From Streptomyces griseus (GTDB lineage: Bacteria > Actinomycetota > Actinomycetes > Nanopelagicales > Nanopelagicaceae): a DNA stretch of 64,000 nucleotides. The position numbers and the translations under genes are program-made. The DNA is taken from positions 62,001-126,000 of the forward strand of contig CAMCYO010000001.1 in NCBI GenBank assembly GCA_945884695.1. Direction: 5' to 3'. How positions within the stretch are numbered: position 1 is the stretch's first letter; each line of letters starts with the position of its first letter. Below the pieces are notes generated by a model. The model searched no databases, was not told where the DNA came from, and saw only the letters and a program-made list of their open reading frames with translations. Of this stretch, positions 24,016-44,086 are shown in pieces.

Positions 24016-24056
24016 AATCCCTGCATAACTCTCCGATGCTTAGTGAAAAGGTAGAA

Positions 24057-25529
24057 ATGTCTATTCAATCTGTAAATCCACGAACCGGGGAGTCCTTCGG
24101 CCCAATAATTGCTCCGACAACATCGGCCCAAGTTGATTCAATGATTGCTAGTGCCGTAACTGCTTTTGAGAAGTGGTCTCTCACTTCGGCAACTAGTCGG
24201 GCCAAAGTACTTTTCGCATTAGCTGATGCTCTAGACGCTAACACTGAGAAATTGGTGGAAATCGCTGATGCTGAAACTGCACTTGGGATACCTCGGCTAA
24301 CGGGTGAAGTAGGACGTACCACTTTTCAATTGAGAACTTTTGCGCAAGCACTTGAGAAGGGTGAGTTCGTAGCGCCATCGATTGATTCGGCAGTCGATGC
24401 TCCTCTTCCACAAGGTCACCCTAAGTTTTTGAAAACTCTGCGTGCAATTGGGCCTGTTGCAGTTTTTGGCGCAAGCAATTTTCCTTTTGCTTTTAGCGTT
24501 CTAGGCGGAGACACTGCTTCGGCACTTGCTGCAGGATGTTCGGTTGTCATCAAAGCGCATCCCGCGCACCCTCAAACTTCTCAATTGAGTTTTGATATCG
24601 CAAAGAAAGCGTTGACAGATGCGGGAGCGCCGGAGGGAATAATTTCTTTGGGCCATGGTTTTGATTTCGGAAAGAGTGTGATCACGGATCCACGCATCAG
24701 CGCAGGTGCATTTACTGGCTCTAAAGCTGGTGGCCGAGCACTTTTTGATTTAGCACAAGATCGCGAATGTCCGATTCCCTTTTACGGAGAACTAGGAAGC
24801 GTCAATCCAGTTGTTGTTACGTCGACGGCCTTGAGCGATGTAAATGCTTTTGCTGGTGCTTATTTAGATTCACTTCTCATGGGTAATGGGCAATTTTGCA
24901 CGAACCCAAGTGTTCTCTTCGTTCCAGATAATGCAGAATTTATCAACGCGGTCCAAGAGCAATTGTCACACCGAGAGCCTGCGCCATTTTTGAGCGAGGC
25001 AACTAAGTCACTCCACGACAAAAATCGCGCAGATGTTATTTCCAAAACAAGTGCACGCTTATTGCAAGGAAAGAGTGCGCCGACTCAAGGATTTTTCTCC
25101 TCACCCGCCGTGCTGGTTGTATCTGCTCAGAGTGTTCTGACACACCCTGAGTATTTGGCCACGGAATGTTTTGGTCCAACTGGATTAGTTGTGACATATT
25201 CTCATTCGGACGAACTGCATGCCGTTCTGTCCAAACTTGAAGGCGCACTTGTCGGATGCCTTTTTTCACAAAATATCTCAACTGCTGAAGAACTAATCCT
25301 CAATGCTTTAGCCTCAAAGGCTGGTCGAGTTGCATTTAATGCGTGGCCCACGGGAGTGGCAGTTACTGCTGGCCAAAACCATGGTGGTCCGTACCCTGCC
25401 TCAACGTCATCCCTGCATACCTCCGTTGGAACAAGTGCAATCACACGCTTCTTGCGACCTGTAGCATTCCAAGGTCTACCCGATGAGTCATACAGAGCAG
25501 TTACTGCCGATACCGTGAAAGGAAAATAA
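24057..25529 (+). CDS. Alpha-ketoglutaric semialdehyde dehydrogenase (2,5-dioxovalerate dehydrogenase)
   Basis: A 490-residue aldehyde dehydrogenase of the KGSADH branch, oxidising 2,5-dioxopentanoate to 2-oxoglutarate with NAD(P)+. The branch is recognised from FGASNFPFAFSVLGGDTASA, VVIKAHPAHPQTS and the catalytic Cys in GNGQFCTNPSVLFV; the C-terminal GVAVTAGQNHGGPYPASTS is also typical. The ATG at 24057 is chosen because AAAGG lies about 8 nt upstream; an ATG at 24036 has no site. The product is the terminal step of Weimberg-type pentose and oxidative uronate pathways, which fits the surrounding genes. A TAGAAT at 24013-24018 may be an internal promoter. Confidence 0.85.
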   Translation: MSIQSVNPRTGESFGPIIAPTTSAQVDSMIASAVTAFEKWSLTSATSRAKVLFALADALDANTEKLVEIADAETALGIPRLTGEVGRTTFQLRTFAQALEKGEFVAPSIDSAVDAPLPQGHPKFLKTLRAIGPVAVFGASNFPFAFSVLGGDTASALAAGCSVVIKAHPAHPQTSQLSFDIAKKALTDAGAPEGIISLGHGFDFGKSVITDPRISAGAFTGSKAGGRALFDLAQDRECPIPFYGELGSVNPVVVTSTALSDVNAFAGAYLDSLLMGNGQFCTNPSVLFVPDNAEFINAVQEQLSHREPAPFLSEATKSLHDKNRADVISKTSARLLQGKSAPTQGFFSSPAVLVVSAQSVLTHPEYLATECFGPTGLVVTYSHSDELHAVLSKLEGALVGCLFSQNISTAEELILNALASKAGRVAFNAWPTGVAVTAGQNHGGPYPASTSSLHTSVGTSAITRFLRPVAFQGLPDESYRAVTADTVKGK

Positions 25530-25533
25530 ACAG

Positions 25534-26388
25534 ATGCGTATAGCCCGACTTGGAGAATTCGAAAAAGAAAGAGCGGCTGTAATCGTTAGCGATACGGAGG
25601 CAGTGTTTGTTGATGATGTTATTGGGGATTGGAATCGCGTAGCACTTGAAAATGGCGCACTTGCAAAAGTACAAGCGCTAGACCTTTCATCTCGCCCGCG
25701 CGTTAAGTTCGCAGATTATCGTTTGGGATCACCGGTTGCCCGCCCTACAAAGGCAATTTGCGTTGGCCTTAACTACACCCAACATGCCATTGAAACTGGT
25801 GCAACAATTCCGACTGAACCTATTGTGTTCATGAAGGCTCCAGATACTGTCGTTGGCGGATTCGACCACATCATCGTTCCGCCAGGATCGAAGAAAACAG
25901 ATTACGAAGTTGAAATCTGTGTTGTTATCGGAAAGAATGCTCTTTATCTAGACTCGCCTGCACAAGCGCGCGAGCACATACTTGGATACACAATCTCCCA
26001 AGATGTTTCAGAGCGTCATTGGCAGGTAGAGCGTTTAGGTCAGTGGATGAAGGGAAAGTCTTTCCCATCTTTTAACCCAATTGGTCCTTGGATTGTTACC
26101 GCAGACTCTTTTGACCCTACCGATGTTCGCCTTTGGTGCACTGTTGATGGAGAAAAGCGTCAGGATTCCCGCACGAGTGACATGATTTTCGGTATCGAAC
26201 ATTGCATTTGGTACATCACTCAATTCATGGAACTCAAAGCAGGAGACATCATTAATACCGGAACGCCCCAAGGCGTCGGAATGGGTTTCAAGCCAGAGAA
26301 ATACATTCATGGTGGAGAAGTTGTTGAAACGGGCATCGAAGGTATTGGAACAATTAAGTCCAACGTCTTGGCGTACAAGAAGCCTTAA
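25534..26388 (+). CDS. Fumarylacetoacetate hydrolase-family protein (possible 2-keto-3-deoxy acid dehydratase/hydrolase)
   Basis: A 284-residue FAH-fold enzyme with the metal ligands in DYEVEICVVIGKN (E-x-E) and TISQDVSERHWQ (D), plus GINTGTPQGVGMG-like sequence seen here as IINTGTPQGVGMGFKPEKY. Family members hydrolyse, decarboxylate or dehydrate beta- or alpha-keto acids. Directly following a KGSADH gene, it may be a 2-keto-3-deoxypentonate dehydratase (XylX-like) supplying 2,5-dioxovalerate, or a 2,4-diketo-3-deoxy acid hydrolase; both are inference. The stop overlaps the convergent enolase paralogue by 4 nt. Confidence 0.82.
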   Translation: MRIARLGEFEKERAAVIVSDTEAVFVDDVIGDWNRVALENGALAKVQALDLSSRPRVKFADYRLGSPVARPTKAICVGLNYTQHAIETGATIPTEPIVFMKAPDTVVGGFDHIIVPPGSKKTDYEVEICVVIGKNALYLDSPAQAREHILGYTISQDVSERHWQVERLGQWMKGKSFPSFNPIGPWIVTADSFDPTDVRLWCTVDGEKRQDSRTSDMIFGIEHCIWYITQFMELKAGDIINTGTPQGVGMGFKPEKYIHGGEVVETGIEGIGTIKSNVLAYKKP

Positions 26389-27659
26389 AAAGGTTTACTA
26401 AAAACGCATTCTTGAGTTGCTTCTAACTCAAGAAGTCGGTTCCACTTTGCCGTTCTATCAGAGCCATGAGTGGATCCAACTTTGATTTGACCAGCGCTCC
26501 AACCAGTTGCGATATCTGAAAGCCAGCTATCTTCGGTCTCACCTGAGCGCGCTGAGACAATTGTTTTAAAGCCATTGTTTTGTGCTTCCTTGATTACTTG
26601 GTGCGTGTGCGTAATTAGGCCGTTCTGATTTGCTTTAATCAAAATCGAATTGGCGCTTTTTTCAGCGATTCCTTTACGCAAGCGTTCTAAATTGGTAGTG
26701 AAAAGGTCATCTCCTACAACTTGCAAAGTAGACGGCACCTGATTCATGAATGAATTCCAAGAATCCCAATCATCCTCCGCGAAAGGATCTTCGATGGAAA
26801 TAATTGGATGTGAATGTACGAGTTCGACCAATTGGTCGTTCCACTGTTGGCTTGAATAGATCTTTCCAGAGTTTCTCGATGTGTATTTTCCATCGGAGTA
26901 AAACTGCGTAGATGCAATGTCGAGTGCAATTGAAACGTCTTTGCCTGGATTCAGGCCCACCGTTTCTATGCATTCAGTAACAAATGCGCAAGCTGTATTA
27001 GATGATTCAAAGCCAATCCCTAGTCCGCCTTCATCTGCAACGAGATTGGTGACGTATCCTCTTTTGGCACCCAATTTTGCTGCCATTTCACGAATTGCCA
27101 CAACCCAAGAAAGGGCTTGAGCAAAATTCTCGGCGCCGTGTGGCAGTACCAATACATCTTGGATATCAAGTGCTCCGTTGGCGTGTGCGCCTCCAGAGAG
27201 GATGTTGACCATTGGCATCGGAATAAGAAGTGGGCCATGCCCTTGATAAAACTGAGCAAGAGAAAGACCTGCAAGATGCGCACATGCTTTGGCAGTTGCA
27301 ATTGAAACCGCAAGAGTTGCGTTTGCACCTATCCGTTCATGCCTGGAAGTAGCATCAAGTTCAACCATAGTTTCATCACTTGCATGCGTTGACGGTTGAC
27401 TGCCAACAAGTCGAGGAGCAATTTCGTTTTTGATGTGGCTGACTGCTTGATACACACTTGTTCCAGCATAGAATTTTTCAGCTTGTGGGGAGTTGTGGTC
27501 TCTTAGCTCTGATGCTTCATGTGCGCCGGTGGACGCACCAGAAGGAACACTGGCTTTGTGAATCGATCCATCACTTAATTCGATGATTGCACATACTGTT
27601 GGACGGCCCCGAGAATCTAAAACTTGCAATCCCTGAATCTTGGTAATCAGCGTTGTCAT
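26385..27659 (-). CDS. Divergent enolase paralogue with altered active site
   Basis: A 424-residue member of the enolase family proper. Conserved are the LDSRGRPTV start, the mobile loop PSGASTGAHEASELRD, H159 (SGGAHANG), E210 (ADEGG), metal ligands D247, E290 and D317, K342 (IKANQNG) and K393 (GQIKVG). Two positions invariant in glycolytic enolase differ: the QEF glutamate (yeast E168) is D168, and SHRSGE reads SARSGE, so the His (yeast H373) is A370. It is the last gene of the lactonase/U32-like/SDR/kinase operon, not a glycolytic context, and probably acts on a different phospho-acid. The ATGA overlap with the kinase implies coupled translation. Confidence 0.85.
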   Translation of the reverse strand: MTTLITKIQGLQVLDSRGRPTVCAIIELSDGSIHKASVPSGASTGAHEASELRDHNSPQAEKFYAGTSVYQAVSHIKNEIAPRLVGSQPSTHASDETMVELDATSRHERIGANATLAVSIATAKACAHLAGLSLAQFYQGHGPLLIPMPMVNILSGGAHANGALDIQDVLVLPHGAENFAQALSWVVAIREMAAKLGAKRGYVTNLVADEGGLGIGFESSNTACAFVTECIETVGLNPGKDVSIALDIASTQFYSDGKYTSRNSGKIYSSQQWNDQLVELVHSHPIISIEDPFAEDDWDSWNSFMNQVPSTLQVVGDDLFTTNLERLRKGIAEKSANSILIKANQNGLITHTHQVIKEAQNNGFKTIVSARSGETEDSWLSDIATGWSAGQIKVGSTHGSDRTAKWNRLLELEATQECVFSKPF

Positions 27660-28645
27660 GGAATCAAGAATACTTCAGAAAGAGTGGGTGGAGTTGCGCG
27701 AGAGAGTAGGCTAATTGCGCGGTTACGAAGTGATTCTTGGGCTTGGGTATTCAAGTAATGCACCAGTGACACACCATCAACCCGAGCTAAGGCAATAGTT
27801 GCTGCATGCCAAGTAAAGGTGTGTGGTGCTTTTCGTCCAAGGACGCTCTCATAACTTTCTATGAACTCCTTGGCGCAGACAGCAAGAGAACTCTTTTGCT
27901 GTGGGTCGGTGAAAAATTCCTGCTTGCACATTAAATGACCAAGGATGAATGCCAAATCGAAGACTGGATTTCCAGTGTGAGCCACTTCGAAATCGAGAAC
28001 TATTGCTTTTCTATCATCTTCAACAAGAATATTTTTTGGAGAAAAATCGCCATGAACTAAAGCGCTTTTATCGCTTTCTAGCTCGTCGATGAGCCCTTTA
28101 ATTCTTTCTGCTAGTGCGAGATGTTTTTCAATCAGGGATCGGTAAAAAGGCGTAATTCGGAGTTGTTCGAAAAGTGAATCTTCGATGAATTCGTTAAGTA
28201 TCTCGGGGAGCTGTGACGTTTGTGTATGCCAGATACCTAGAATCCTTCCAAGATCTTGCGCTACCTCATGGCGAATATTTCCTGCCAGCAAATCTTCTTT
28301 CCAATTTGTTACCCCTTGCGGGGCCCTTTCGATTAGCAGAGAAAATCTCTCGGGATCAACGTCATACAGCGTGGGGACATGTAGGGGAGTCAACTCATGG
28401 AGAACTTCTATCGCTCTGGCTTCAACGAGTGCTCTGCGTTGCTCGACACTCCATTTGGAGGCAACTTTTAATTCAGGCAAAGCTTGCTTGAAGACTAAGT
28501 TTTTACCTTCACCACTGACTGCAAGGACAACGTTTGACACTCCTCCACCGAGTACTTCTACATCTACTTGTGCACCAGCAGAAAAAATCTTGCGCGATTG
28601 TAAATACTCTACGACTGTTGATTCATTCAGAAGTTCGACAGCCAT
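27656..28645 (-). CDS. APH/choline-kinase-fold small-molecule kinase
   Basis: A 329-residue protein kinase-like phosphotransferase. The glycine-rich N-lobe is LGGGVSNVVLAVSGEGKNLV followed by FKQALPEL (ATP-binding Lys). The catalytic Brenner motif is LVHGDFSPKNILV, and the metal-binding Asp follows in VLDFEVAHTGNPVFDLAFIL. Family members phosphorylate hydroxyls of aminoglycosides, choline, methylthioribose, hydroxylysine and sugars. Overlap with an enolase paralogue suggests it makes the phosphorylated acid that the enolase-like enzyme uses (inference). No resistance-specific features are seen. Confidence 0.8.
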   Translation of the reverse strand: MAVELLNESTVVEYLQSRKIFSAGAQVDVEVLGGGVSNVVLAVSGEGKNLVFKQALPELKVASKWSVEQRRALVEARAIEVLHELTPLHVPTLYDVDPERFSLLIERAPQGVTNWKEDLLAGNIRHEVAQDLGRILGIWHTQTSQLPEILNEFIEDSLFEQLRITPFYRSLIEKHLALAERIKGLIDELESDKSALVHGDFSPKNILVEDDRKAIVLDFEVAHTGNPVFDLAFILGHLMCKQEFFTDPQQKSSLAVCAKEFIESYESVLGRKAPHTFTWHAATIALARVDGVSLVHYLNTQAQESLRNRAISLLSRATPPTLSEVFLIP

Positions 28646-28654
28646 AAGAAACTT

Positions 28655-29359
28655 TTATGGAAGAAAAGTTACAGAGAAGGCATTATCGACGAGTAAACTT
28701 TGCCCCGAGATTCCTGTATTGAGATCACTTCCGAGTAGATAGACGGAATTGCCAACATCGGCTGGCACGACAAGAGACCCAACCGGCGTTGCCTCCAGAA
28801 CATTAGCCATTTGATCAGAAGTTAAACCTTTGCGCGACATTGGCGTATCGACTACTCCAGGCAAGATGCCATTAACAAGAATTTGATGTGATCTGCCAAG
28901 GTCCACAGAGAGCGAGCGAACAAGCCCGCCAACAGCTGCCTTAGTAACAGAGTATGCCAGCTTCTCTTTTCGAGTGAAAACTTCGGCTAGGGAAGACATA
29001 ATGACAATCTTGCCCTTTTTAGGAATTAACTCTCTACCCATCAAAAACTGAACATGTTCAATAACAAAGCCAACGTTTGCTTGGAAGAGACGGTCCATGT
29101 CGGCGGCCGTAGTGGTCATTACAGTGCCGTTCATGTTTATGCCTTGAGCAAAGACAACAGATTCAAATCCACCTTGCGCGCTAATTTCTGCAAACTTTTT
29201 CGACTCAGCCAGTGGAAGAACTATTTCATCTGCGGCGTTTGTGGCAGTGCGAACCACGGTAAATACTTTCCAACCATGTGAACGAAATGCGTCAGCCGTT
29301 GGCGCACCGAGTGCTCCGTTAGAGCCGAATAGTAAAAGTCGCTTGCTTGATGAACTCAT
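28655..29359 (-). CDS. Short-chain dehydrogenase/reductase
   Basis: A 234-residue SDR. The cofactor loop is LLLFGSNGALGAPTADAF, a slightly unusual G-x3-G-x-G, and VVFAQGINMNG replaces the usual NNAG. The catalytic Ser and Y-x3-K are in IVIMSSLAEVFTRKEKLAYS followed by VTKAA; PGVVDTPMSRKGL follows. It overlaps the U32-like gene by 4 nt and precedes the kinase by 9 nt. In this operon it may oxidise a sugar or sugar acid; the substrate is unknown. Confidence 0.82.
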   Translation of the reverse strand: MSSSSKRLLLFGSNGALGAPTADAFRSHGWKVFTVVRTATNAADEIVLPLAESKKFAEISAQGGFESVVFAQGINMNGTVMTTTAADMDRLFQANVGFVIEHVQFLMGRELIPKKGKIVIMSSLAEVFTRKEKLAYSVTKAAVGGLVRSLSVDLGRSHQILVNGILPGVVDTPMSRKGLTSDQMANVLEATPVGSLVVPADVGNSVYLLGSDLNTGISGQSLLVDNAFSVTFLP

Positions 29360-30285
29360 TTTTCGTATCCGTATCTGGTTAACATCGCATGCCCGATTGA
29401 TGCGCGACGAACGCGTTCGCGTCCGGTTGCTTCTATTACTGCCTGAATATGACCACCTGCTGGATATAGACCGGGGGAGTTTCGCACAGTGAACTTGAGA
29501 TAAATTGGCGAAGCTACTCGAACTAGATCAGGTACTTCGTAGTGACGCACAACGCCACCAAAATCATCTGGACCTTCGACGTATACATCTACAGGGACAT
29601 CCACTTGCGCTCTGATAGCGGCAATCTGTTGGAGTGAAAGATCAGTGGCTAAATTCAATGTGGATGCGCCAAGGTTGACGAGGGCTTGAGCCGTCGCTGC
29701 GTTGGTGCATGGCATTGCAACTGATGTTTTTAGAATGAAATCAGAAGGTAAATCGCCTAACTTTTTTGCTTCGCCTAAAACGCTCAGAAGGCCGACATCT
29801 CCAACCAGAACGGAGCGGACACCGAGGGAAGCCCCATGCAACACATCTTCTACTGCATAACGCAGTTGATCTGTACCTCGCAGGGTTGGTGATGCGACCC
29901 CGCCCGCCGATGAAAGTGGTTGTTTACCGATATCCCATGCTGCGCGTGGTCCTACGAATAGACAAACCTCTAAATCATTTGCTTTGCCAAGTGCAACCAT
30001 CTCTTTAATCTCGTCATCAGTTTGCATCATGATGCCAGACCCTTGTGAGATGCGATGAAATTTAACAGAACGTTTTTTAGCTTCATCGAGTATTGCTTTG
30101 AAAGCTAAAGGACCCTCAACAGATGGAATCTCAATCTTCCAGCGTGCGCCGTCAGAAAATCGTTTAGAAGATTCTGGAATACCGTCAGCATCTTGGGATT
30201 GAATACCCTGATGAGAAAGGAGTGAAATTGATTTAGCCATTGGGCCGTTTGCATCGCGAGTAGAGGGCCAATTCTTTTCTGACAT
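29356..30285 (-). CDS. U32-peptidase-like/TIM-barrel protein of unknown function
   Basis: A 309-residue protein with repeating beta-alpha units: FKAILDEAKKRSVKFHRI, KANDLEVCLFVGPRA, LRYAVEDVLHGASLGVRSVL, TSVAMPCTNAATAQALVNLG and VDVPVDVYVEGPDDFGGVVR. The pattern resembles the barrel of U32-type proteins, which are often misnamed peptidases, or an aldolase-like enzyme. No protease or Schiff-base Lys motif can be assigned confidently. The ATG at 30285 is supported by AAGGAG five bases upstream, so the longer frame that opens at 30342 is rejected. It sits between the lactonase and SDR genes, so a catabolic enzyme role is more likely than proteolysis. Confidence 0.6.
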   Translation of the reverse strand: MSEKNWPSTRDANGPMAKSISLLSHQGIQSQDADGIPESSKRFSDGARWKIEIPSVEGPLAFKAILDEAKKRSVKFHRISQGSGIMMQTDDEIKEMVALGKANDLEVCLFVGPRAAWDIGKQPLSSAGGVASPTLRGTDQLRYAVEDVLHGASLGVRSVLVGDVGLLSVLGEAKKLGDLPSDFILKTSVAMPCTNAATAQALVNLGASTLNLATDLSLQQIAAIRAQVDVPVDVYVEGPDDFGGVVRHYEVPDLVRVASPIYLKFTVRNSPGLYPAGGHIQAVIEATGRERVRRASIGHAMLTRYGYEK

Positions 30286-30310
30286 AGAGACTCCTTGAGG
30301 TGGTGAATAG

Positions 30311-31183
30311 TTACAAAGGATAGAGGGTTGTCGTCCTACCACGGACTCCTGGTGTTGCGATACAGGTCATACCTGCTTCATTCTTTCCATCAGGATCGCC
30401 ATTATGTGCCGACGTGATAATCAACTGGTCAAGATTGGGCCCTGCGAAAACGCAGGAAGTGACAAACTTTGATGGCATTTCGATAATCTCAGTGACATTA
30501 AATTTCTCATCAAAGCGTCGAACTTGACCGCTTCCCCAGAAAGCAACCCAGAGTCCACCTTCGGCATCCATACAAATTCCATCGGGGTATCCATCATCTT
30601 CTGGGATAGAGACCATTGCTCGACGGTTTGAAATGTCATTTCCGTCGTAATCGAATGCATCTATATTCCCAGTCATGGTGTCGACGTAGTACATAGTTTT
30701 TCCGTCATCTGTCCAGTCGATACCGTTACTGCAGGTTACTCCATCGAGAATTCTGGTTAATGATTTTCCATGACGGTCCATTTTGTAAAGTGCAGATAAG
30801 CCAGGCTCATTGTTATATGCCAATGTTCCAAGCCATAGATCTCCCGTTGGTGAAATCTTTGCATCATTCCATCGGGTAGGAACCGGATCGGGTTTTCCAT
30901 CGGCACTCAATCGATGCGGAAGTGAATGCAATGTTCCATTTTCGTCAAGCAGTGAGGGCCCTGAATTCGTACCGACTACGTGGCCACCTTTTGTGCGCGG
31001 GATCGCAAAACCAACGTCTTCACCTAATACATGTTCGGATGTTTTATCGGTGGAAAGATTCTTAAACAGAATTTTTCCATTAAGAATGTCTACCCATGTG
31101 ACATCATTATTATCAATCCCAGTTGCAGCAGGACCTTCGCCCACCCAGCAACGACGGCTGTCCCATACTTGGGCTTTAATCAT
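30311..31183 (-). CDS. SMP-30/gluconolactonase/LRE-family sugar lactonase
   Basis: A 290-residue six-bladed propeller that hydrolyses sugar-acid lactones with one divalent metal. The metal ligands are recognisable as E in CWVGEGPA, N in TRWNDAKISPTGDLWLGTL, N in TCSNGIDWTDDGKTMYYVDT and D in DDGYPDGICMDAEGGLWVAF. It is the first gene of the reverse operon and is divergent from the sugar-acid dehydratase at 31411. A lactonase placed between a sugar dehydrogenase step and a dehydratase is exactly what an oxidative sugar pathway needs. Confidence 0.88.
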   Translation of the reverse strand: MIKAQVWDSRRCWVGEGPAATGIDNNDVTWVDILNGKILFKNLSTDKTSEHVLGEDVGFAIPRTKGGHVVGTNSGPSLLDENGTLHSLPHRLSADGKPDPVPTRWNDAKISPTGDLWLGTLAYNNEPGLSALYKMDRHGKSLTRILDGVTCSNGIDWTDDGKTMYYVDTMTGNIDAFDYDGNDISNRRAMVSIPEDDGYPDGICMDAEGGLWVAFWGSGQVRRFDEKFNVTEIIEMPSKFVTSCVFAGPNLDQLIITSAHNGDPDGKNEAGMTCIATPGVRGRTTTLYPL

Positions 31184-31266: not shown

Positions 31267-31410
31267 CACCTCCTACAGGTTCGGGTATGCCTAATAGTTT
31301 CATCAGAACAGCCAACTTTAATGAAGAATGAATCGTCGTTCGCATTTTCCAAAGAGTTCAATACACTATGGATAATTACTGTCTCGAACGAACGGATGCG
31401 AGGAATTTTC

Positions 31411-32592
31411 GTGAAAATCACTGGTTTCGAAATCATTGTTGTCGGTGCACCATGGCGTGAATTAACGATCGTGGAAGTCCAAACAGATGAGGGCATCACT
31501 GGTGTTGGCGAAGTTCGCATGGTCAATAAGACAGACACTCTAGTTTCAGCAATCCAAGAATTGGGCGATCGCTATTTAATTGGTAGTGATCCTGCCGACC
31601 TTTCAATATTGGCATGGAATATTCAAGTTGCCGAATATGGCTTGCCAGGAGAAGTTGGCCAGAGCGCTTTAGCCGCTTTTGATATTGCTTGCTGGGATAT
31701 TTTAGGAAAATCCCTAGGTGTCCCTATCTATAAATTGCTTGGTGGGATTTTTACAGAACGCGTAGAGGCTTATGCCAATGGCTGGTACCAAGGCGATCGC
31801 GATCCAAAAATCATTGCAGAGTATGCAAGCAAAGTTGTTGAACGAGGGTACCGAGGATTGAAGATGGATCCATTCGGTCATGCATCTGCAGAGATGACAA
31901 CTGCAGATTTGCGTCGTTCAGTAGGAATATTGGAAGCAGTGCGCGACACAGTCGGTCCTGATATTCAAATTTATGTGGAGATGCACGGACGGTTTACTTC
32001 CCATACCGCAAGGCGTGTTGCTAAAGCGATTGAACATATAGAACCGGGCTGGATTGAAGAGCCAGTTTTGCCCATGGATGTCAGCGGTTTGCGTTCAGTG
32101 CGCAATCACACGCACTTACCGATAGCGCTAGGGGAGCGAATTCACGAACCTAGTGCGTTGATTCCATTCCTTGAAGAAGGCCTGGTAGACATCTTGCAAG
32201 TAGACACAACGCATCATGCAGGAATCACTGGTTTGCAACGACTTGTCGGATGGTCTGATGCCTACAACGTTCGACTAGCTCCTCACAATGTATGCGGGCC
32301 AATTGGAACAGCCGCCGCACTCCATGTCGCAATTGCCGCCTCCAACACGAAGGTCCTCGAACATTTCAACGATTTTGCCGATCCATGGGTTCATGAAATT
32401 GTCGAAGGCGCACCATATGTCAATCCAAAAGATGGCGCTTTTGACCTGCCAACAGCGCCAGGCCTGGGCCTGACTTTGAATAAGGAGATATGCGCAAAGC
32501 ATCCCCGAACAGGTGGCAGACTTGCCCTCTATGCAGCAGGTTGGGAAAAGCGACAGGATGCTAAGAACTACGACGCTCATGGTAAGAAGTAA
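31411..32592 (+). CDS. Mandelate-racemase-type enolase-superfamily sugar-acid dehydratase
   Basis: A 393-residue barrel enzyme. The capping domain and barrel are seen as EVQTDEGITGVGEVR, AAFDIACWDILGKSLGVPIY, the Lys strand YRGLKMDPFG, ligand strands IQIYVEMHGRFTSH, WIEEPVLP and ALGERIHEPSAL, and the His strand LAPHNVCGPIG. The first ligand motif is E-M-H where DgoD-like enzymes have D-F-H, so specificity probably differs from the second dehydratase at 38988. It likely removes water from an aldonic or aldaric acid to give a 2-keto-3-deoxy acid. The GTG at 31411 is chosen because GAGGA lies just upstream; earlier codons have no homology. Confidence 0.85.
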   Translation: MKITGFEIIVVGAPWRELTIVEVQTDEGITGVGEVRMVNKTDTLVSAIQELGDRYLIGSDPADLSILAWNIQVAEYGLPGEVGQSALAAFDIACWDILGKSLGVPIYKLLGGIFTERVEAYANGWYQGDRDPKIIAEYASKVVERGYRGLKMDPFGHASAEMTTADLRRSVGILEAVRDTVGPDIQIYVEMHGRFTSHTARRVAKAIEHIEPGWIEEPVLPMDVSGLRSVRNHTHLPIALGERIHEPSALIPFLEEGLVDILQVDTTHHAGITGLQRLVGWSDAYNVRLAPHNVCGPIGTAAALHVAIAASNTKVLEHFNDFADPWVHEIVEGAPYVNPKDGAFDLPTAPGLGLTLNKEICAKHPRTGGRLALYAAGWEKRQDAKNYDAHGKK

Positions 32593-32620: not shown

Positions 32621-33376
32621 ATGACTAACAATACCGATTTCACGGGGCAAGTAGTTGTATTCGTTGGTGCTGGCAACGGAATCGGACGTGCAAGTCTTAA
32701 GCTAGTTGCTGACAGAGGCGGTCGAGTGATTGCGTTGGATAACAACAAGGATGCGCTCACAACCCTTGCTAAGGATTGTAATTTGAATGCTGATCAGGTT
32801 TTCACTCTCGATGTTTCACAAGAGGAGAACGTTCGCGCTGCAATCGCAACTATTTTTGCTCAAGAGAAAAGAATTGATGCACTCGTAAACTCGGCAGGAA
32901 TGACGGGCCCAACAAATCGCAAGTTGGAAGAGATCACATGGGCAGAATACGAACTCACTCTTCGAGTTAATCTCTTCGGAACGATTTGGCTAACACAACA
33001 AGTTGTCCCAATTATGAAAGCTCAGAAGTATGGTCGCATTGTTCATGTTGCATCCATTGCTGGTAAAGAAGGTAACCCAGGAATGGCTCCTTACAACACT
33101 TCCAAAGCTGGAATGATTGGATTTGTCAAAGGAATTGCAAAAGAAGTCGCACCAGATGGGGTAATCATCAATGCTGTTGCACCTGCTGTAATTCGAACTC
33201 CAATGAATGCAACAACAAGTGAAGAAACGCTGAAATATATGATCGCCCGAATTCCACTTGGTCGCGTGGGAGAAGCCGAAGAAGTGGCCGAAACTATCGC
33301 CTTTATGGCCTCCCGTGCCTGCTCATTCACAACCGGATTTACTTTCGATACTTCAGGGGGCCGGGCTACCTATTAG
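32621..33376 (+). CDS. Short-chain sugar dehydrogenase (SDR)
   Basis: A 251-residue classical SDR. The cofactor motif is VVFVGAGNGIGRASLKLVAD, then NSAGMTGPTN, the catalytic Ser in VHVASIAGKEGNPGMAPY and Y-N-T-S-K, and a DTSGGRATY C-terminus. AAGGAG lies before the ATG. Its place after a sugar-acid dehydratase and ahead of a sugar ABC importer suggests it oxidises the imported sugar or sugar acid (for example a pentose or uronate 1-dehydrogenase). The exact substrate cannot be read. Confidence 0.83.
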   Translation: MTNNTDFTGQVVVFVGAGNGIGRASLKLVADRGGRVIALDNNKDALTTLAKDCNLNADQVFTLDVSQEENVRAAIATIFAQEKRIDALVNSAGMTGPTNRKLEEITWAEYELTLRVNLFGTIWLTQQVVPIMKAQKYGRIVHVASIAGKEGNPGMAPYNTSKAGMIGFVKGIAKEVAPDGVIINAVAPAVIRTPMNATTSEETLKYMIARIPLGRVGEAEEVAETIAFMASRACSFTTGFTFDTSGGRATY

Positions 33377-33568: not shown

Positions 33569-34588
33569 ATGAAAGCACGTCGAATTAAGGCTGGCGTAAC
33601 TGCGCTAGCACTTGCCGCATCTGTTGGATTAGCAACTGTTGGTACAGCTGCTTCTTCATCTGCTGCAGGCGGATGGTGTACAGGAGTAAAGATCGCTGCA
33701 TTCCCAGGCGGTCCACAAGGTGGAGTTTTCGCCATTAACGTTTACAACGGTCAAGTACAAGCCGCAAAAGACCTAGGTGCAACAGTAAAGTACTACTGGT
33801 CAAACTGGGATCCAAGCGTTATGACAACACAACTTAAAGAAGCTGTTGCTTCTAAGCCTAACGGTATTGCCGGAATCGTTGGACTTGTTGGTGATGCATC
33901 TGCTGGTCCAATCATTGCTGACGCATTCAAAAAGGGAATCATTGTTGCAAACGCTAACTCAGGTTTGCCAATAGTTACTCCAAAATATGCAGCTGCAGGC
34001 ATGGGCTACGTTGGAGCAACTAACTACAAAGCTGGCGTAGATCTTGCTAACGAAGCTATCAGCCGTGGCAAGCTCGCAAAGGGTGGAACATCATTCGTGT
34101 GGGGTCTTAAGGGCGCTGCAGGAGATCGTGCACAACGTACAATCGGAATCATCGATGCTCTAGAGAAGGCCGGAATCAAGGTTGTGTATCAAGAAATTGA
34201 TCAAGCAACAAATACAACTCCAGCCTCAGGCGTACCAACATTCGTTGGCGTCATGTCAAAGAATCCTGAAATCAAATCAGTATTCCTAGATCACGGTGGA
34301 CTCACTGCAACTGCTGAGGCCTACCTCAAGGGTGCAAGCATCAAGGCTGGCGGAGTTTATGTCGCTGGTTTTGATATGTCTCCTGCAGTTGGTACTGCTA
34401 TTAAATCAGGCTACTTAAGCTTGATTATTGATCAGCAAGAGTGGCTACAAGGCTACCTACCAATCCTTCAGGTCTGCCTAACCACGAAGTTTAAGTTCTC
34501 TGGTTTGGACATTAACACTGCAGGTGGATTTGTTGATAAGGCTAACGTTGACGCTATTATCCCACTAGCGGCAAAGCTCATTCGCTAA
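33569..34588 (+). CDS. Sugar ABC transporter substrate-binding protein (ribose/fructose type)
   Basis: A 339-residue periplasmic-binding-protein-like family 4 (RbsB-like) protein. A Sec signal peptide (residues 1-33, AASVGLATVGTAASSSAA) lacks a lipobox Cys at the cleavage site; a Cys a few residues later (GGWCTG) is probably not lipidated. The fold signatures are VQAAKDLGATVKYYW, VASKPNGIAGIVGLVGDASA and SVFLDHGGLTATAEAYL. It has the best ribosome site in the window and is followed by a strong hairpin that probably keeps its mRNA in excess over the ATPase and permease. The sugar bound is unknown. Confidence 0.9.
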   Translation: MKARRIKAGVTALALAASVGLATVGTAASSSAAGGWCTGVKIAAFPGGPQGGVFAINVYNGQVQAAKDLGATVKYYWSNWDPSVMTTQLKEAVASKPNGIAGIVGLVGDASAGPIIADAFKKGIIVANANSGLPIVTPKYAAAGMGYVGATNYKAGVDLANEAISRGKLAKGGTSFVWGLKGAAGDRAQRTIGIIDALEKAGIKVVYQEIDQATNTTPASGVPTFVGVMSKNPEIKSVFLDHGGLTATAEAYLKGASIKAGGVYVAGFDMSPAVGTAIKSGYLSLIIDQQEWLQGYLPILQVCLTTKFKFSGLDINTAGGFVDKANVDAIIPLAAKLIR

Positions 34589-34629
34589 TTTAGGTAAATC
34601 CAAATAAACTAGCGTAAAGATGTTGAATA

Positions 34630-34663
34630 GAAACAACTGGGGGCGAAAGCCCCCAGTTGTTTC
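34630..34663 (+). terminator. Intercistronic hairpin between binding protein and ABC ATPase genes
   Basis: A perfect 15-bp stem (GAAACAACTGGGGGC with its complement) closed by a GAAA tetraloop and followed by TTTAACA. It lies 41 nt past the binding-protein stop and 48 nt before the ATPase start. It is best read as a partial terminator or 3'-end stabiliser. Confidence 0.8.
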
Positions 34664-34711
34664 TTTAACAAGGCCAGTAAATCGTGTTGAAGATTTAACG
34701 AAAGGCAAGAA

Positions 34712-35488
34712 ATGAATAGCCAGACTCCTGTAATTGCACTGAAGAATGTTTCAAAAACTTTTGGTGAAGTGCGCTCCCTATCGGGTATTGATTTAGAAAT
34801 CTACCCTGGTGAAATTGTTGGGTTATTGGGTGATAACGGTGCCGGTAAATCCACATTGGTTAAAACCATCATGGGTTTTCATAAGCCAGATGCAGGTGGC
34901 GAGATTTGGTTTAAGGGTGAACAGATCTCAGACTGGAGCGTTGCGAAAGCCCGCGGCCTCGGAATCGAAACGATTTATCAAGAACGAGCACTCTGTGAGC
35001 AACAGCCAATCTGGCGAAATATGTTCATGGGACGCGAAATTGTTAATAGATTTGGAAAATTAGATGTTAAGGGAATGCGCAAAGAAGCCTCTCGCCTAAT
35101 GAGTGAGCACATGGGCTTTACTTCAACTGCAGTTCACCCTGATAACACTGTCTTAACCATGTCGGGTGGAGAAAAGCAGGGAGTAGCTATTACTCGTGCC
35201 CTTCACTTTGAGGCAGAGCTAGTGATTTTGGATGAGCCAACTGTTGGACTTTCACTTTCAGAGACTAGGAAAACCCTTGATTTTATTCAGAACATTAAGG
35301 CCTCTGGCCGTTCTGCAATCTTTATCGATCACAATATCTTCCATATTTATCCTGCAGTGGATCGAATGATTGTCCTCGATCGAGGAAAAGTTGCTGGAAA
35401 TTATAAGAAGAGTGAAATAACCATGGATGAGCTCATCGAGAGCATGTACCGCGTAGCACGCACTGGAAATATGAAGGAGCAAAAATAA
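34712..35488 (+). CDS. Sugar ABC transporter ATP-binding protein (single-domain)
   Basis: A 258-residue ATPase. The Walker A is GLLGDNGAGKSTLVKTIMGF, the signature reads MSGGEKQGVAITRAL, the Walker B is LVILDEPTVGLSLSE, and the H-switch is FIDHNIFH. It corresponds to one half of RbsA-type proteins, as in FrcA-type fructose importers, so a homodimer would energise the permease. GAAAGGCAAG precedes the ATG. The stop overlaps the permease start by one base (TAATG). Confidence 0.92.
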   Translation: MNSQTPVIALKNVSKTFGEVRSLSGIDLEIYPGEIVGLLGDNGAGKSTLVKTIMGFHKPDAGGEIWFKGEQISDWSVAKARGLGIETIYQERALCEQQPIWRNMFMGREIVNRFGKLDVKGMRKEASRLMSEHMGFTSTAVHPDNTVLTMSGGEKQGVAITRALHFEAELVILDEPTVGLSLSETRKTLDFIQNIKASGRSAIFIDHNIFHIYPAVDRMIVLDRGKVAGNYKKSEITMDELIESMYRVARTGNMKEQK

Positions 35489-36495
35489 TGACCGAAAAGA
35501 GCACAGCAACAGCACCTAAGAACAACGCTGCGCGCCCACCTTCCGTGTGGCGTCGTTTCGGTATGCAACTTGGTATTTGGTCCGTTGGAATCGTTATGTG
35601 GCTGGCGTTCGTAGTGCTTGCACCGAGTGCGTTTACTCAGCCTGAAATGTATTTAGCCTTTGCATCTTCCACTCCAATTTTTGCACTGATGGCAATTCCA
35701 CTAACGTTGGTAGTTATTACTGGGGAAATTGATCTCTCTTTTCCATCCATTATGGCTTTATCAACATGCGCTTTTACAAAAGTTGTTGCTGGCGGCGCGC
35801 CAATTATCGTTGGAGTTCTTGCAGGATTTTTGATGGGCATCTCATGCGGTTTAATTAACGGGTACTTGGTAACTAAATTCAATATTCCATCCTTGGTTAT
35901 CACGATTGGAACTCAGTTCTTGTTCTTAGGTTTAGAGCTAGCTTGGACAAATGGTTCCGGCGTAGATCTAACTACAACCAATTACGCCACGATTAGCAAG
36001 ATTTTTGTTGGGCGTACGTTCTTTGGAGTTGCTAACCAGTTCTGGTGGACGATTCTTGCCACACTCTTGCTCTGGTACATCTTGAACAGAACAAGATTTG
36101 GTTCCCATGTGTTCCTTACAGGTGATAACAAGATTTCCGCCCAACTTATGGGTGTGAATATCAGCAGAGTTAAGCAAGGGACCTTTGCACTTGTTGGTTT
36201 TTTCGCAGCACTTGCCGGAATGATTGGTTCATTTGAGGTTAACTACTTCTGGCCAACCATGGGTGGAGGCTTACTCCTCAACTCAATTGCTGCAGTGTTC
36301 TTGGGCGGTACAAGTGTGTTCGGAGGTTCAGGCACAGTAACTGGAACATTTGTTGGTGCATTCATTATTGGTGCCATTAATGCTGGAATTGTTGCTGTAG
36401 GAATCAACGCTTTCTATACGCAAGTTTTCTTCGGTCTTGTGATTATTGCATCGGTACTTTTGCAAGCTATTATCAGTAAGAGAGTTAAGAGCTAA
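35488..36495 (+). CDS. Sugar ABC transporter permease (RbsC/FrcC-like)
   Basis: A 335-residue membrane protein with about 9-10 helices. Family marks are VVITGEIDLSFPSIMALSTC, GLINGYLVTKFNIPSLVITI and GGGLLLNSIAAVFLGGTSVF, all typical of the ribose/fructose/xylose permease family. The N-terminal 20 residues are hydrophilic. Its start overlaps the ATPase stop, so the subunits are made together. Confidence 0.92.
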   Translation: MTEKSTATAPKNNAARPPSVWRRFGMQLGIWSVGIVMWLAFVVLAPSAFTQPEMYLAFASSTPIFALMAIPLTLVVITGEIDLSFPSIMALSTCAFTKVVAGGAPIIVGVLAGFLMGISCGLINGYLVTKFNIPSLVITIGTQFLFLGLELAWTNGSGVDLTTTNYATISKIFVGRTFFGVANQFWWTILATLLLWYILNRTRFGSHVFLTGDNKISAQLMGVNISRVKQGTFALVGFFAALAGMIGSFEVNYFWPTMGGGLLLNSIAAVFLGGTSVFGGSGTVTGTFVGAFIIGAINAGIVAVGINAFYTQVFFGLVIIASVLLQAIISKRVKS

Positions 36496-40990: not shown

Positions 40991-42196
40991 ATGACTCATG
41001 GAGCCCTTGAAAAATTACGCGTAATTGATGCCACACAAATGCTTGCAGGACCCATTGCTGGAGTGCGACTCGGAGATCTTGGAGCTGATGTAATAAAAGT
41101 TGAGCCTCCAAATCTTGGAGAGTTCAATAGAACGCGCGGATTTGAAGATAAGCAGAGCAATGGCGAGATGACTACTTTTCTTGCCGTCAATCGCAATAAA
41201 CGATCCCTTGCTATCGATCTTAAACATCCTGACGGAAAGGCAACTATTCATGAGTTGGTAAAAAACTCTGATGTTTTCTTGCAAAATTTTCGCTACGGTA
41301 CAGCAGATCGTTTAGGAATTGGTTACGAAGAACTTCACAAAATAAATCCTCGCTTAATTTACTGTTCGATTTCAGGCTATGGCTCCTTTGGTCCCTATCG
41401 TGATCGCCCAGGACAAGATCTCATTGTGCAGGGATATAGCGGTTCAATGTTTAGTGTTGGAGCCGAAGGTGATGCTCCAACCCCAAGTGCACTTTGGGGA
41501 GCCGATGTCATGACTGGTTACCAAGCCGTCATTGGAATTTTGGCAGCTGTTGAATCACGACACCAAACAGGAATTGGTCAACATGTGGAAGTGGATATGT
41601 TGTCAGTGGTTATGGATTGTCAATTACAGGAGATGGTCACATTTTTAAATGCGGGTGCAATGCCTCGCCGATTAGTGGAACGCAGTGCACATGGATCAAT
41701 CCCAGCGCCATATGGAGTGTACAAAACTAAAGATGGTTGGCTCACTCTTGCCATGGTCCCACTGCCCTTGCTTGGTGAGATTTTCAACGATGATTGGTTG
41801 AAAACTCTTACACACTACAACTCTGGGCACTTGCATCGCGACAAAGTTTACGCGCTTATCCGCAATAAATTTGTAGACAAGACCACGCAAGAGTGGATCG
41901 ATATCTGCGATGAAATAGGTGCGTGGTGTGGCCCGGTTTATAACTATGAAGATTTAGTGAATGACCCACATATCAAAGAAACTAACTACATCGTTGAACA
42001 ACCACAATTGCGTGGCGGATCCGCGCGCACGGTAAGACCACCACTTCGGCTTTCAGAAACACCACCAACAATTCGCCGTGGAGCCCCAGCACTGGGTGAG
42101 CACTCACGAGAAGTTCTAAGTGGCGTTCTTGGGTTCTCTGATTCACATATTGATGCACTGGTGGCTGCCGGTGCAATCGGACTAGTAAAGGAGTAA
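40991..42196 (+). CDS. CaiB/BaiF-family (class III) CoA-transferase
   Basis: A 401-residue enzyme of the family that moves CoA between carboxylic acids via an aspartyl-CoA intermediate. Marks are VIDATQMLAGPIAGVRLGDL, GADVIKVEPPNLGE, NRNKRSLAIDLKHPDGKATI, and the catalytic Asp in RPGQDLIVQGYSGSMFSVG. C-terminal sequences (RTVRPPLRLSETPP, GAPALGEHSREVL) are also typical. It heads a block with two crotonases and a GH88/GH105 protein, so it probably charges a sugar-derived carboxylic acid with CoA; donor and acceptor are unknown. Confidence 0.88.
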   Translation: MTHGALEKLRVIDATQMLAGPIAGVRLGDLGADVIKVEPPNLGEFNRTRGFEDKQSNGEMTTFLAVNRNKRSLAIDLKHPDGKATIHELVKNSDVFLQNFRYGTADRLGIGYEELHKINPRLIYCSISGYGSFGPYRDRPGQDLIVQGYSGSMFSVGAEGDAPTPSALWGADVMTGYQAVIGILAAVESRHQTGIGQHVEVDMLSVVMDCQLQEMVTFLNAGAMPRRLVERSAHGSIPAPYGVYKTKDGWLTLAMVPLPLLGEIFNDDWLKTLTHYNSGHLHRDKVYALIRNKFVDKTTQEWIDICDEIGAWCGPVYNYEDLVNDPHIKETNYIVEQPQLRGGSARTVRPPLRLSETPPTIRRGAPALGEHSREVLSGVLGFSDSHIDALVAAGAIGLVKE

Positions 42197-42198
42197 TG

Positions 42199-42993
42199 AT
42201 GGTCGTAGGTAACCCAGGTAACGTCAGATTCGAGCGTCACGGAAATACTGCGCACTTGATTCTTGATCGCCCAGAGAAAATCAATGCCATGACAGTAGTT
42301 ATGGATAAGCAGATGAACTCCTATATTTACGAGATCAATAACAACATGGATATCCGCTCCGTTGTTCTCTACGGTAAAGGTGAAAAGGGATTTTGTGCAG
42401 GGAGCGATTTAACCGAACTCGATGAATACGGAAATAACTGGGAGTACCGTAATCGTTTTGATCGTGGCCTTGATTACGCGCGCGCTATTTGGTTGATTAA
42501 AAAACCAACTGTTGCATCCCTTCATGGCTGGTGCATCGGTGGTGGCCTCGAAATGGCTTGTGCATCCGATATTCGGGTGGCATCTCCTGATACTAAATTT
42601 CAAGCCGGCGAAATTCGTTGGGGTTGGCACGGGGGTTCTGGGCAAACACAACTTCTCACACATGCAGTAGGGCCAGGTAACGCATCACTATTTTTGCTTC
42701 ATGGTGAAGCTGTTGAAGCGGATGCTGCTTTGCGAATGGGTCTTGTGCAAGAAGTTGTTCCTCGCGATCAAGTGCTTAACCGAGCAATTGCTATTGCTGA
42801 ATCCATTGCAGCAAAAGCTCCAATTGCTGCACAAATGACTAAGCACATGGTGCGCATGGCACAGAGCATGCCTCTTGAAGTCGCATTGCTATATGAGAAC
42901 GATTCATTCTCTTATTGCATGACGACAGAAGATGCCGCAGAGGGCCAGAAAGCATTCCAAGAAAAGCGTCCACCGAATTTCCAAGGAAGGTAA
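42199..42993 (+). CDS. Crotonase-fold enzyme (first of a paralogous pair)
   Basis: A 264-residue enoyl-CoA hydratase/isomerase relative. Oxyanion-hole segments are GEKGFCAGSDLTELDEYGNN and HGWCIGGGLEMACASDIR. The usual PGAGG-T-Q block reads GEIRWGWHGGSGQTQLL, with an unusual Trp-His. It aligns throughout with the product of 44801-45592 (shared GSD-x5-D-x-YG-x-NWE-x-RNR, WHGG-x-G-x-TQLL, YEND-x-FSYC-x-TTED), showing duplication. The second ATG (42199) is preferred because GGAG sits 5 nt before it; the first overlaps the CaiB stop. Confidence 0.85.
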   Translation: MVVGNPGNVRFERHGNTAHLILDRPEKINAMTVVMDKQMNSYIYEINNNMDIRSVVLYGKGEKGFCAGSDLTELDEYGNNWEYRNRFDRGLDYARAIWLIKKPTVASLHGWCIGGGLEMACASDIRVASPDTKFQAGEIRWGWHGGSGQTQLLTHAVGPGNASLFLLHGEAVEADAALRMGLVQEVVPRDQVLNRAIAIAESIAAKAPIAAQMTKHMVRMAQSMPLEVALLYENDSFSYCMTTEDAAEGQKAFQEKRPPNFQGR

Positions 42994-42997
42994 TTAC

Positions 42998-44086
42998 ATG
43001 TCATCTGCTCCAGCACTTGGCTCCCGCCAAGAACGATTAGATGTTTTAGCAAAAGTTGCTTCATCCATTCCGACGATGCGCTTTAGTACGTGGAACTTTG
43101 GAGATTCAACCGGTTTTGAAGGAATGCTTGAGTCAGGCAAACTACTTAAGGATCCAAAATATTTTGCTTTCGCACATGGCTGGATGCGTGCATGGGCTAC
43201 ACGACCAACCCCATATTCACGCATGGATGCAACTGCGCCAGGAATGGCGATGGTAGAAGTAGCGCACGAAGCAAATGATTCAATCTTGCTAGAAGCACTA
43301 ATCGGTCTTGCCCGATATTTGATGTCTCGCCCAAAAGATCGTGGAATTTTTGATATGTGGGAGAGCATGTGTTTGATTCCGCCTTATGGTGGCGAAACTT
43401 TGCCACCTAAAGAAGCGGCACTTCTAGCTGAACCACCCGGGGGTTCTTGCGTTGACTGTTTGCATTTTGATCCGCCATTTTTTACTGCACTTGGAAAAGA
43501 GTTAGAAAGTGCAGAATTTACAGAAGTGGGCGTGGAGCAAGCACTTGCTTACATCGAAAATTTCCAGCAAGAAAGCGGAATCTTCGACCACTTCTTTATG
43601 CACGGTGTGCCAGGAAACTTCGGACAAGGTTGGGGCCGAGGTCAAGGTTGGTCAATGCTTGGAATGCTTGATGTTTTAAAGAACATTAGCGCCAAGCACC
43701 CCGCCCGCAAAACAATTGAAGAAGCAGTTGTTAAACAAATTAATGGCATGATCAAATTGCAACGACCTGATGGTCGCTGGTGGTGTGTAGTCGATGTACC
43801 GGCCTCCGGCGAAGAAGGATCAACTGCTGCATTTATGGCAACTGGTTTTGCCCGCGCAATTAAAATGGGACTCGTTGATAAGAAAACTGTCCTGCCTCAC
43901 GCTATCGATGCTCTCGCTGGGGCAATTGCGGACACCGATGAAAATGGACATCTCAAAAATGTCACAGCTGCCGTAATGGCATCAACTCGTGTTTCACATT
44001 ACGTGCATACACCCCGTGGATTTTTAGTTCCGTGGGGACAAGGACCACTTGCAATGGCTATTTGTGAAATGGATGATTTAGTGTGA
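42998..44086 (+). CDS. Glycoside hydrolase family 88/105-like unsaturated uronyl hydrolase
   Basis: A 362-residue (alpha/alpha)6-barrel-type protein. Segments STWNFGDSTGFEGMLESG, DATAPGMAMVEVAHEANDS, SCVDCLHFDPPFFTALGKEL (holding the Asp equivalent to the catalytic residue of YteR-type enzymes), SGIFDHFFMHG, and GWGRGQGWSMLGMLDVL match the GH88/105 pattern. Family members hydrate the C4-C5 double bond of unsaturated uronyl or rhamnogalacturonyl residues to release the sugar. There is no signal peptide, so it is cytoplasmic and acts on imported oligosaccharides or glycosides. GGAAGG precedes the ATG at 42998. No polysaccharide lyase is in the window. Confidence 0.8.
   Translation: MSSAPALGSRQERLDVLAKVASSIPTMRFSTWNFGDSTGFEGMLESGKLLKDPKYFAFAHGWMRAWATRPTPYSRMDATAPGMAMVEVAHEANDSILLEALIGLARYLMSRPKDRGIFDMWESMCLIPPYGGETLPPKEAALLAEPPGGSCVDCLHFDPPFFTALGKELESAEFTEVGVEQALAYIENFQQESGIFDHFFMHGVPGNFGQGWGRGQGWSMLGMLDVLKNISAKHPARKTIEEAVVKQINGMIKLQRPDGRWWCVVDVPASGEEGSTAAFMATGFARAIKMGLVDKKTVLPHAIDALAGAIADTDENGHLKNVTAAVMASTRVSHYVHTPRGFLVPWGQGPLAMAICEMDDLV

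Follow-up and report, generated by a model that had tools for sequence, protein, structure and literature searches.

A kinase-linked, apparently non-glycolytic enolase paralogue in freshwater and soil actinobacteria points to a dedicated step in hydroxy acid degradation

In the serine cycle of methylotrophs, hydroxypyruvate is carried via glycerate and 2-phosphoglycerate to phosphoenolpyruvate (PEP), a segment that relies on the HprA-GckA-Eno set of dehydrogenase, kinase and enolase. Enolase itself is best known from glycolysis, with solved representatives from Chloroflexus (4z17/4yws), M. tuberculosis (7cll) and S. elongatus (4rop), and annotation gives every true enolase the name phosphopyruvate hydratase. 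The non-phosphorylative 'Route III' (PMC6336799) and the L-rhamnose diketo route, as described, end in pyruvate and glycolate or lactate, and we found no kinase-enolase pair in any of them. Here we describe a minus-strand operon in a 64,000-nucleotide stretch of DNA (hereafter the window) from a freshwater actinobacterium, which encodes, in this order, an SGL lactonase, a U32-like barrel protein, an SDR oxidoreductase, an APH-fold kinase and an enolase, all five present as a first-pass annotation of the DNA had described them. Comparison across genomes supports the enolase of this operon as a non-glycolytic paralogue functionally tied to the kinase, and the pair points to a dedicated two-enzyme step, apparently undescribed, for degrading a small hydroxy acid.

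The window enolase matches both family domains (Enolase_N 131.4 and Enolase_C 261.1 bits) and passes the cut-off of the TIGR01060 'eno' model (421.8 bits against 300). It shares both domains and about 40-46% identity with the solved glycolytic enolases, and its predicted structure (pLDDT 88.2, pTM 0.89) has the enolase fold with TM scores of 0.92-0.95 to solved enolases, the divergent segments 201-210, 371-380 and 391-400 being among the lowest-confidence regions of the model. The sequence reads IQ-D168-V where canonical enolases have Q-E-F, and S-A370-RSGE where they have S-H-RSGE, corresponding to replacement of E168 by Asp and of H373 by Ala. The first-pass annotation had noted these two changes against a background of conserved metal ligands and lysines, and residue reading bears this out: the metal ligands D247/E290/D317 are retained, together with K342 (K345) and K393 (K396), as are the further catalytic residues E210 (yeast E211), H159, R371 and S372. 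The kinase-linked type further departs from glycolytic enolase in having S for N ahead of GGAHA, A for G in GDEGG and S for A following K396, and in an extra residue at position 206. A second, canonical eno, for which the annotation had proposed a check, lies at G000:C11:2287-3486; it is 45% identical to the window enolase and carries NGGAHAD, QEF and SHRSGE, and its presence ruled out the idea of a paralogue standing in for an absent enolase. Both types also occur together in the single-contig genomes G021, G028, G037 and G046, and a canonical enolase was found in every complete genome checked.

Pairing with the kinase, conservation, an invariant residue signature and separation from the glycolytic enolase all emerged from a survey in which the enolase served as bait in 100 related genomes and the kinase in 84,980 species genomes. 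Close copies of the enolase (57-100% identity) were recovered in 28 of the 100 genomes including the host, with further members at 36-46%, and a kinase search of the same genomes found the partner in the close set and in divergent kinase-type members, mostly directly adjacent. The kinase bait returned 80 loci from Nanopelagicales, Streptomyces, Micromonospora, Microbacterium, Nocardioides, Actinomadura, Jiangella, Acidimicrobiaceae and one Chloroflexota metagenome-assembled genome (MAG), with the enolase directly downstream in all but eight; five of the eight are cut off by a contig end or lie on short contigs (L148, L152, L171, L177, L189), leaving L127, L198 and L201, which are taken up below (G020, G434 and G435). 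Every enolase from this search readable over both motifs shows QD and SARSG, and in 71 of 80 pairs the kinase gene shares exactly 4 nt with the enolase gene. Taken together, 93 distinct kinase-linked enolases (Actinomycetota plus the Chloroflexota MAG, many of them closely related) have D168, A370, A208 and S396 without exception, and the metal ligands and the equivalents of K345, K396, E211, H159, R374 and S375 are invariant in the same 93. The kinase lies in the same locus for 90 of the 93; the other three (L129, L103, L104) were rejected as kinase-less exceptions, since L129 has a 169-aa kinase fragment at a contig edge and the kinases of L103 and L104 are on other contigs of their own genomes (G055, G053).

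Canonical-type enolases, a small and mostly actinobacterial comparison set of 15, have E, H and G at the first three of these four positions in 15/15 and A at the fourth in 14/15, and none has the kinase. That D168/A370 might be widespread in ordinary enolases, which the first-pass annotation had named as a refuting observation, was thus rejected (0 of 15). Because residue 370 was the criterion for sorting the two groups, what counts as independent evidence is D168, the association with the kinase, and the tree. In the latter, a maximum-likelihood reconstruction on spread representatives, 27 kinase-linked sequences are split from 16 canonical rows by a 100/100 branch, the E. coli enolase grouping with the canonical set; this is the phylogenetic comparison with glycolytic enolases that the first-pass annotation had proposed. 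Because the two changes are fixed throughout the kinase-linked clade and dN/dS (the ratio of nonsynonymous to synonymous substitution rates) comes to about 0.05 (0.094/1.79) in the comparison with the G001 orthologue, they are not attributable to chance. The distribution of the type is patchy beside a nearly universal canonical enolase, and joint loss of two active-site residues in a clade tied to one kinase suggests functional divergence within the enolase family.

The notion that all second enolases in the class are of the kinase-linked type was rejected on finding that L099, L100, L101 and L102 (G065, G071, G083, G098) are second actinobacterial enolases with QEF and SHRSGE and no kinase neighbour. 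One locus, L239 (G263:C8:133500-152000), has two A370-type enolases, one of which belongs to a divergent subtype (GGGAHA, VADEGGFWP) that also occurs in L098. At L120 (G020:C1:30000-45000) the kinase, SDR and FAH genes are kept and the enolase and U32 genes are gone from an otherwise collinear region. Public MAG records titled Bifidobacterium breve (L138, L140, L155) hold Nanopelagicales-like kinase-enolase loci, and their titles look wrong.

The kinase scores 59.9 bits against PF01636 (cut-off 23.2), with the motifs HGDxSPKN and LDxE invariant and H198, G199, D200, N205, D218 and E220 unchanged in 13 aligned sequences. Its closest solved relatives are methylthioribose and 4-hydroxytryptamine kinases (2pyw, 2olc, 9eto; E about 1e-16 to 1e-17), with which it shares the HGDxxPxN and D motifs, but it fails the methylthioribose kinase model TIGR01767 (86.6 bits against a cut-off of 275) and has different genomic partners. 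Neither of the glycerate kinase domains PF02595 (GlxK/GarK) and MOFRL PF05161 (GckA) was found in it, nor anywhere in the host genome, a search that covered these two of the three classes, the third being plant-type; the host genome likewise has no glyoxylate carboligase above cut-off.

In the PEP complex of the S. elongatus enolase, His367 and Glu168 hold a water 3.5 Å from C3 (PMC8996150). The two changed positions are the equivalents of these residues, and the C3-hydroxyl side of the pocket would therefore be rebuilt with smaller side chains, whereas recognition of the carboxylate and C2-phosphate and the base lysine appear unchanged. The positions that tell the two groups apart concentrate near catalytic residues, 7 of 11 lying within four residues of one (p = 0.004), and 5 of 9 still doing so once the two residues that prompted the analysis are left out (p = 0.03). 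Since the catalytic Lys, Glu and His and the metal ligands are invariant in the 93 sequences, the protein looks like an active enolase-type catalyst, and the clade amounts to a natural mutant series for the way enolase positions its leaving group.

Gene contexts of the pair vary widely. Those of the far loci were read by tblastn with a fixed query list, because six-frame open reading frames (ORFs) in GC-rich loci included spurious long ones, and some gene names in such loci come from visual inspection. In Nanopelagicales the neighbours are SDRs, the U32-like protein, an FAH hydrolase, an IlvD/EDD dehydratase, aldehyde dehydrogenase and lactonase, along with mandelate-racemase-type dehydratases, KDG kinase and KDPG aldolase; for the IlvD/EDD dehydratase the nearest match is L-arabinonate dehydratase, at 841.7 bits against a cut-off of 882. 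Enzyme types of Route III and the L-rhamnose diketo route recur beside the pair, namely sugar dehydrogenase, lactonase, dehydratase, a second dehydrogenase and FAH hydrolase. FAH genes occur in 36 of 77 near loci and about half of the far loci, and 16 of 22 FAH members found beside the pair carry the GxNYxxHxxE dyad. The pair is also accompanied by an L-arabinose isomerase and a sugar ABC transporter (L087, assigned from the sequence by reading), a GH51-like arabinofuranosidase (L195, read by eye), GlcD/GlcF with an RraA-like aldolase (L095, L096), an LldD-type oxidase with D-2-hydroxyacid dehydrogenase (L105) and a DgaE-type pyridoxal phosphate enzyme (L083, L241). Among the soil genera, 14 loci have a D-2-hydroxyacid dehydrogenase next to the pair, often as one overlapping run: dehydrogenase, kinase and enolase are consecutive and overlapping in L182, L196 and L199, and FAH, dehydrogenase, enolase and kinase are consecutive in L244. 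These loci recall the serine-cycle segment in bringing the three activities together, but the kinase is of the APH fold rather than GckA/MOFRL, the enolase is modified and the neighbours are catabolic clusters, not C1 genes. Extradiol dioxygenase and flavin adenine dinucleotide (FAD) monooxygenase clusters accompany the pair in L196, L199, L237, L240, L242 and L247. The first-pass suggestion of a kinase-enolase pair acting on a sugar-derived hydroxy acid therefore stands as to the functional tie, the genes being adjacent across many genera with one invariant signature, and only in part as to the sugar origin. Gene partners single out no one substrate, and a pair that moves among clusters this varied would be expected to use a small intermediate that they have in common.

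With a probability of roughly 55%, we propose that kinase and enolase form one catabolic step pair converting a short 2,3-dihydroxy acid into an enol-phosphate. Enolase chemistry needs a 2-phospho acid with a C3 hydroxyl, and so the pair would most plausibly make the 2-phosphate and then the enol-phosphate; from this we infer which hydroxyl is phosphorylated, that a dehydration follows and what class of acid is used. The kinase would phosphorylate the 2-hydroxyl, and the enolase would grip the C2-phosphate and carboxylate like an ordinary enolase and remove the C2 proton and C3 hydroxyl, giving an enol-phosphate (PEP in the case of glycerate) that would enter central metabolism. The acid is most likely a small fragment that remains after a 2-hydroxyacid dehydrogenase or a C-C hydrolase of the FAH type has acted. 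Hydrolases with the dyad seen in most of these FAH members cut 2,4-dioxo acids into pyruvate and a hydroxy acid, glycolate and lactate being released in this way from other sugars by the diketo route (PMC6336799), and by extension from that work a hexose version would yield pyruvate and glycerate. Several points weigh against the proposal. A pentose route through the L-arabinonate-type dehydratase would give glycolate, which enolase chemistry cannot use. If D-glycerate itself were the acid, the cell's canonical enolase would suffice, and an M. tuberculosis enolase with the E163A change (the E168 position) is reported to be non-functional (PMC10619443). Finally, G020, G434 and G435 have the kinase and FAH genes and only canonical enolases in the genome; the kinase product could enter glycolysis there, or the pathway could be decaying.

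Among more specific readings, a tentative one keeps this chemistry and takes the substrate to be glycerate (D-, or L- as its mirror image), converted to PEP with the altered residues tuning or inverting the geometry. Conversion of glycerate to PEP is the simplest case, since the dehydrogenase-kinase-enolase set matches the serine-cycle steps, and it is favoured by the FAH-type hydrolase and D-2-hydroxyacid dehydrogenase partners and by the lack of a PF02595/MOFRL glycerate kinase in the host genome. GlcDF in L095/L096 and the LldD and 2-hydroxyacid dehydrogenase of L105 are in keeping with it, and the genomes with kinase, FAH and canonical enolase only would work if the product were D-2-phosphoglycerate. 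Set against these are the loss in all 93 sequences of two residues that ordinary enolase needs for D-2-phosphoglycerate, and the canonical enolase in every complete genome checked. The route from glycerate through 2-phosphoglycerate to PEP, offered as one option in the first-pass annotation, is thus favoured by its gene partners and opposed by the altered pocket.

A C3-substituted or mirror-image acid appears to fit the altered pocket better than glycerate, and the retention of a dedicated enolase alongside the canonical one would be accounted for by either a C3-substituted acid or L-glycerate. It is possible, though about as tentative as the glycerate reading, that the substrate is specifically a C3-substituted acid of four or more carbons (erythronate, threonate or an aldonate), giving the enol-phosphate of a 2-keto-3-deoxy acid as an ATP-primed alternative to the sugar-acid dehydratases. 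Each replacement, E to D and H to A, leaves a smaller side chain exactly where the C3 hydroxyl is bound (PMC8996150), the clade-specific positions cluster near catalytic residues, and lactonase, acid-sugar dehydratases, the L-arabinose isomerase and the GH51-like arabinofuranosidase are nearby; but dedicated dehydratases for the same acids lie in the same clusters, and the aromatic-cluster contexts are not an obvious source of aldonates. Of the earlier suggestion that the changed active site takes a bulkier or different acid, the placement of both changes on the C3-hydroxyl side (PMC8996150) speaks in favour, although the acid itself is not settled.

A different reaction on the phosphorylated product, involving another leaving group or hydration of an enol-phosphate, seems improbable. 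Catabolism of 4-hydroxyacyl-CoA uses an APH-fold kinase to convert a hydroxyl into a leaving group, the profile of our kinase reaches the ACAD11 kinase domain (E 7e-6), and the acid that would aid C3-OH loss is altered; however, the dehydration machinery (E210 and both lysines) is kept in 93/93, and R371/S372 with the loop-1 serine/glycine still build the C2-phosphate site. Least credible is a second glycolytic isoenzyme, as automatic annotation would call it from the TIGR01060 score and the TM values to solved enolases, given the invariant loss of the E168 and H373 equivalents, the near-obligatory kinase neighbour, the separate and patchily distributed clade and the reported inactivity of the E163A enolase (PMC10619443).

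Should our preferred reading of a kinase-enolase step on a short 2,3-dihydroxy acid be right, it would add an undescribed catabolic step to abundant freshwater actinobacteria and to soil genera such as Streptomyces and Microbacterium, with two enzymes that are small and, judging by their families, likely soluble. Slightly short of even odds, in our estimate, is the bolder proposal that the clade is the first true enolase subfamily not acting on D-2-phosphoglycerate, which together with the kinase would use ATP-primed dehydration of a larger or mirror-image 2,3-dihydroxy acid, by way of a 2-phospho acid and an enol-phosphate, as a shared outlet for sugar-acid and aromatic catabolic clusters of Actinomycetota and Chloroflexota. 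No description of a kinase-linked enolase was found in the literature searched, which mostly did not reach subscription journals.

The host genome (1.48 Mb, 100% complete, 0.3% contamination) belongs to the same family (Nanopelagicaceae, Nanopelagicales) as Candidatus Planktophila versatilis, whose corresponding locus is at G200:C1:1043528 (NZ_CP016774.1:1043528). Coordinates of the operon and its surroundings are collected in Table 1.

Table 1. Positions in the window of the kinase-enolase operon, the two altered codons and adjoining genes.
Feature	Position	Strand	Support
Kinase-coupled enolase paralogue, 424 aa	26385..27659	-	Pfam Enolase_N/Enolase_C; TIGR01060 421.8 bits
D168 codon (yeast E168, M. 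tuberculosis E163)	27156..27158	-	D 93/93 kinase-linked, E 15/15 canonical-type
A370 codon (yeast H373, S. elongatus H367)	26550..26552	-	A 93/93 kinase-linked, H 15/15 canonical-type
APH-fold kinase, 329 aa	27656..28645	-	PF01636 59.9 bits; 4-nt overlap with enolase gene
SDR oxidoreductase (SDRa), directly upstream of kinase	28655..29359	-	PF13561 100.8 bits; 46/77 near loci
U32-like barrel protein	29356..30342	-	PF01136 39.4 bits; 45/77 near loci
SMP-30/gluconolactonase-type lactonase (SGL)	30311..31183	-	PF08450 219.8 bits
FAH-superfamily hydrolase, convergent with enolase, ends overlapping 4 nt	25534..26388	+	NF053535 252.7 bits, cut-off 500
Aldehyde dehydrogenase, same island	24036..25529	+	ALDH models matched below their cut-offs
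Mandelate-racemase-type sugar-acid dehydratase, divergent from operon	31321..32592	+	NF040790 gluconate/galactonate dehydratase 294.7 bits, cut-off 750
SDR (SDRb), probable sugar dehydrogenase	32621..33376	+	Domain match; 40/77 near loci

The FAH neighbour falls below the cut-off for NF053535, the 2,4-didehydro-3-deoxy-L-rhamnonate hydrolase model, and carries GLNYTQHAIE, read from the translation, which corresponds to the GLNYxxHxxE dyad of acylpyruvate-type hydrolases. The U32-like protein matches neither an NCBIfam model nor a PDB sequence, and its gene probably starts some 20 codons downstream of the GTG at 30342, since the alignment with relatives begins only at about residue 15-23. Further along the window, positions 33569-36495 encode a sugar ABC transporter of the ribose type, in which the ATPase consists of one 258-aa domain where a tandem protein is usual, and positions 40991-45592, within the sugar-acid island, hold two genes resembling enoyl-CoA hydratases and one resembling CaiB-type CoA transferases (read by eye).

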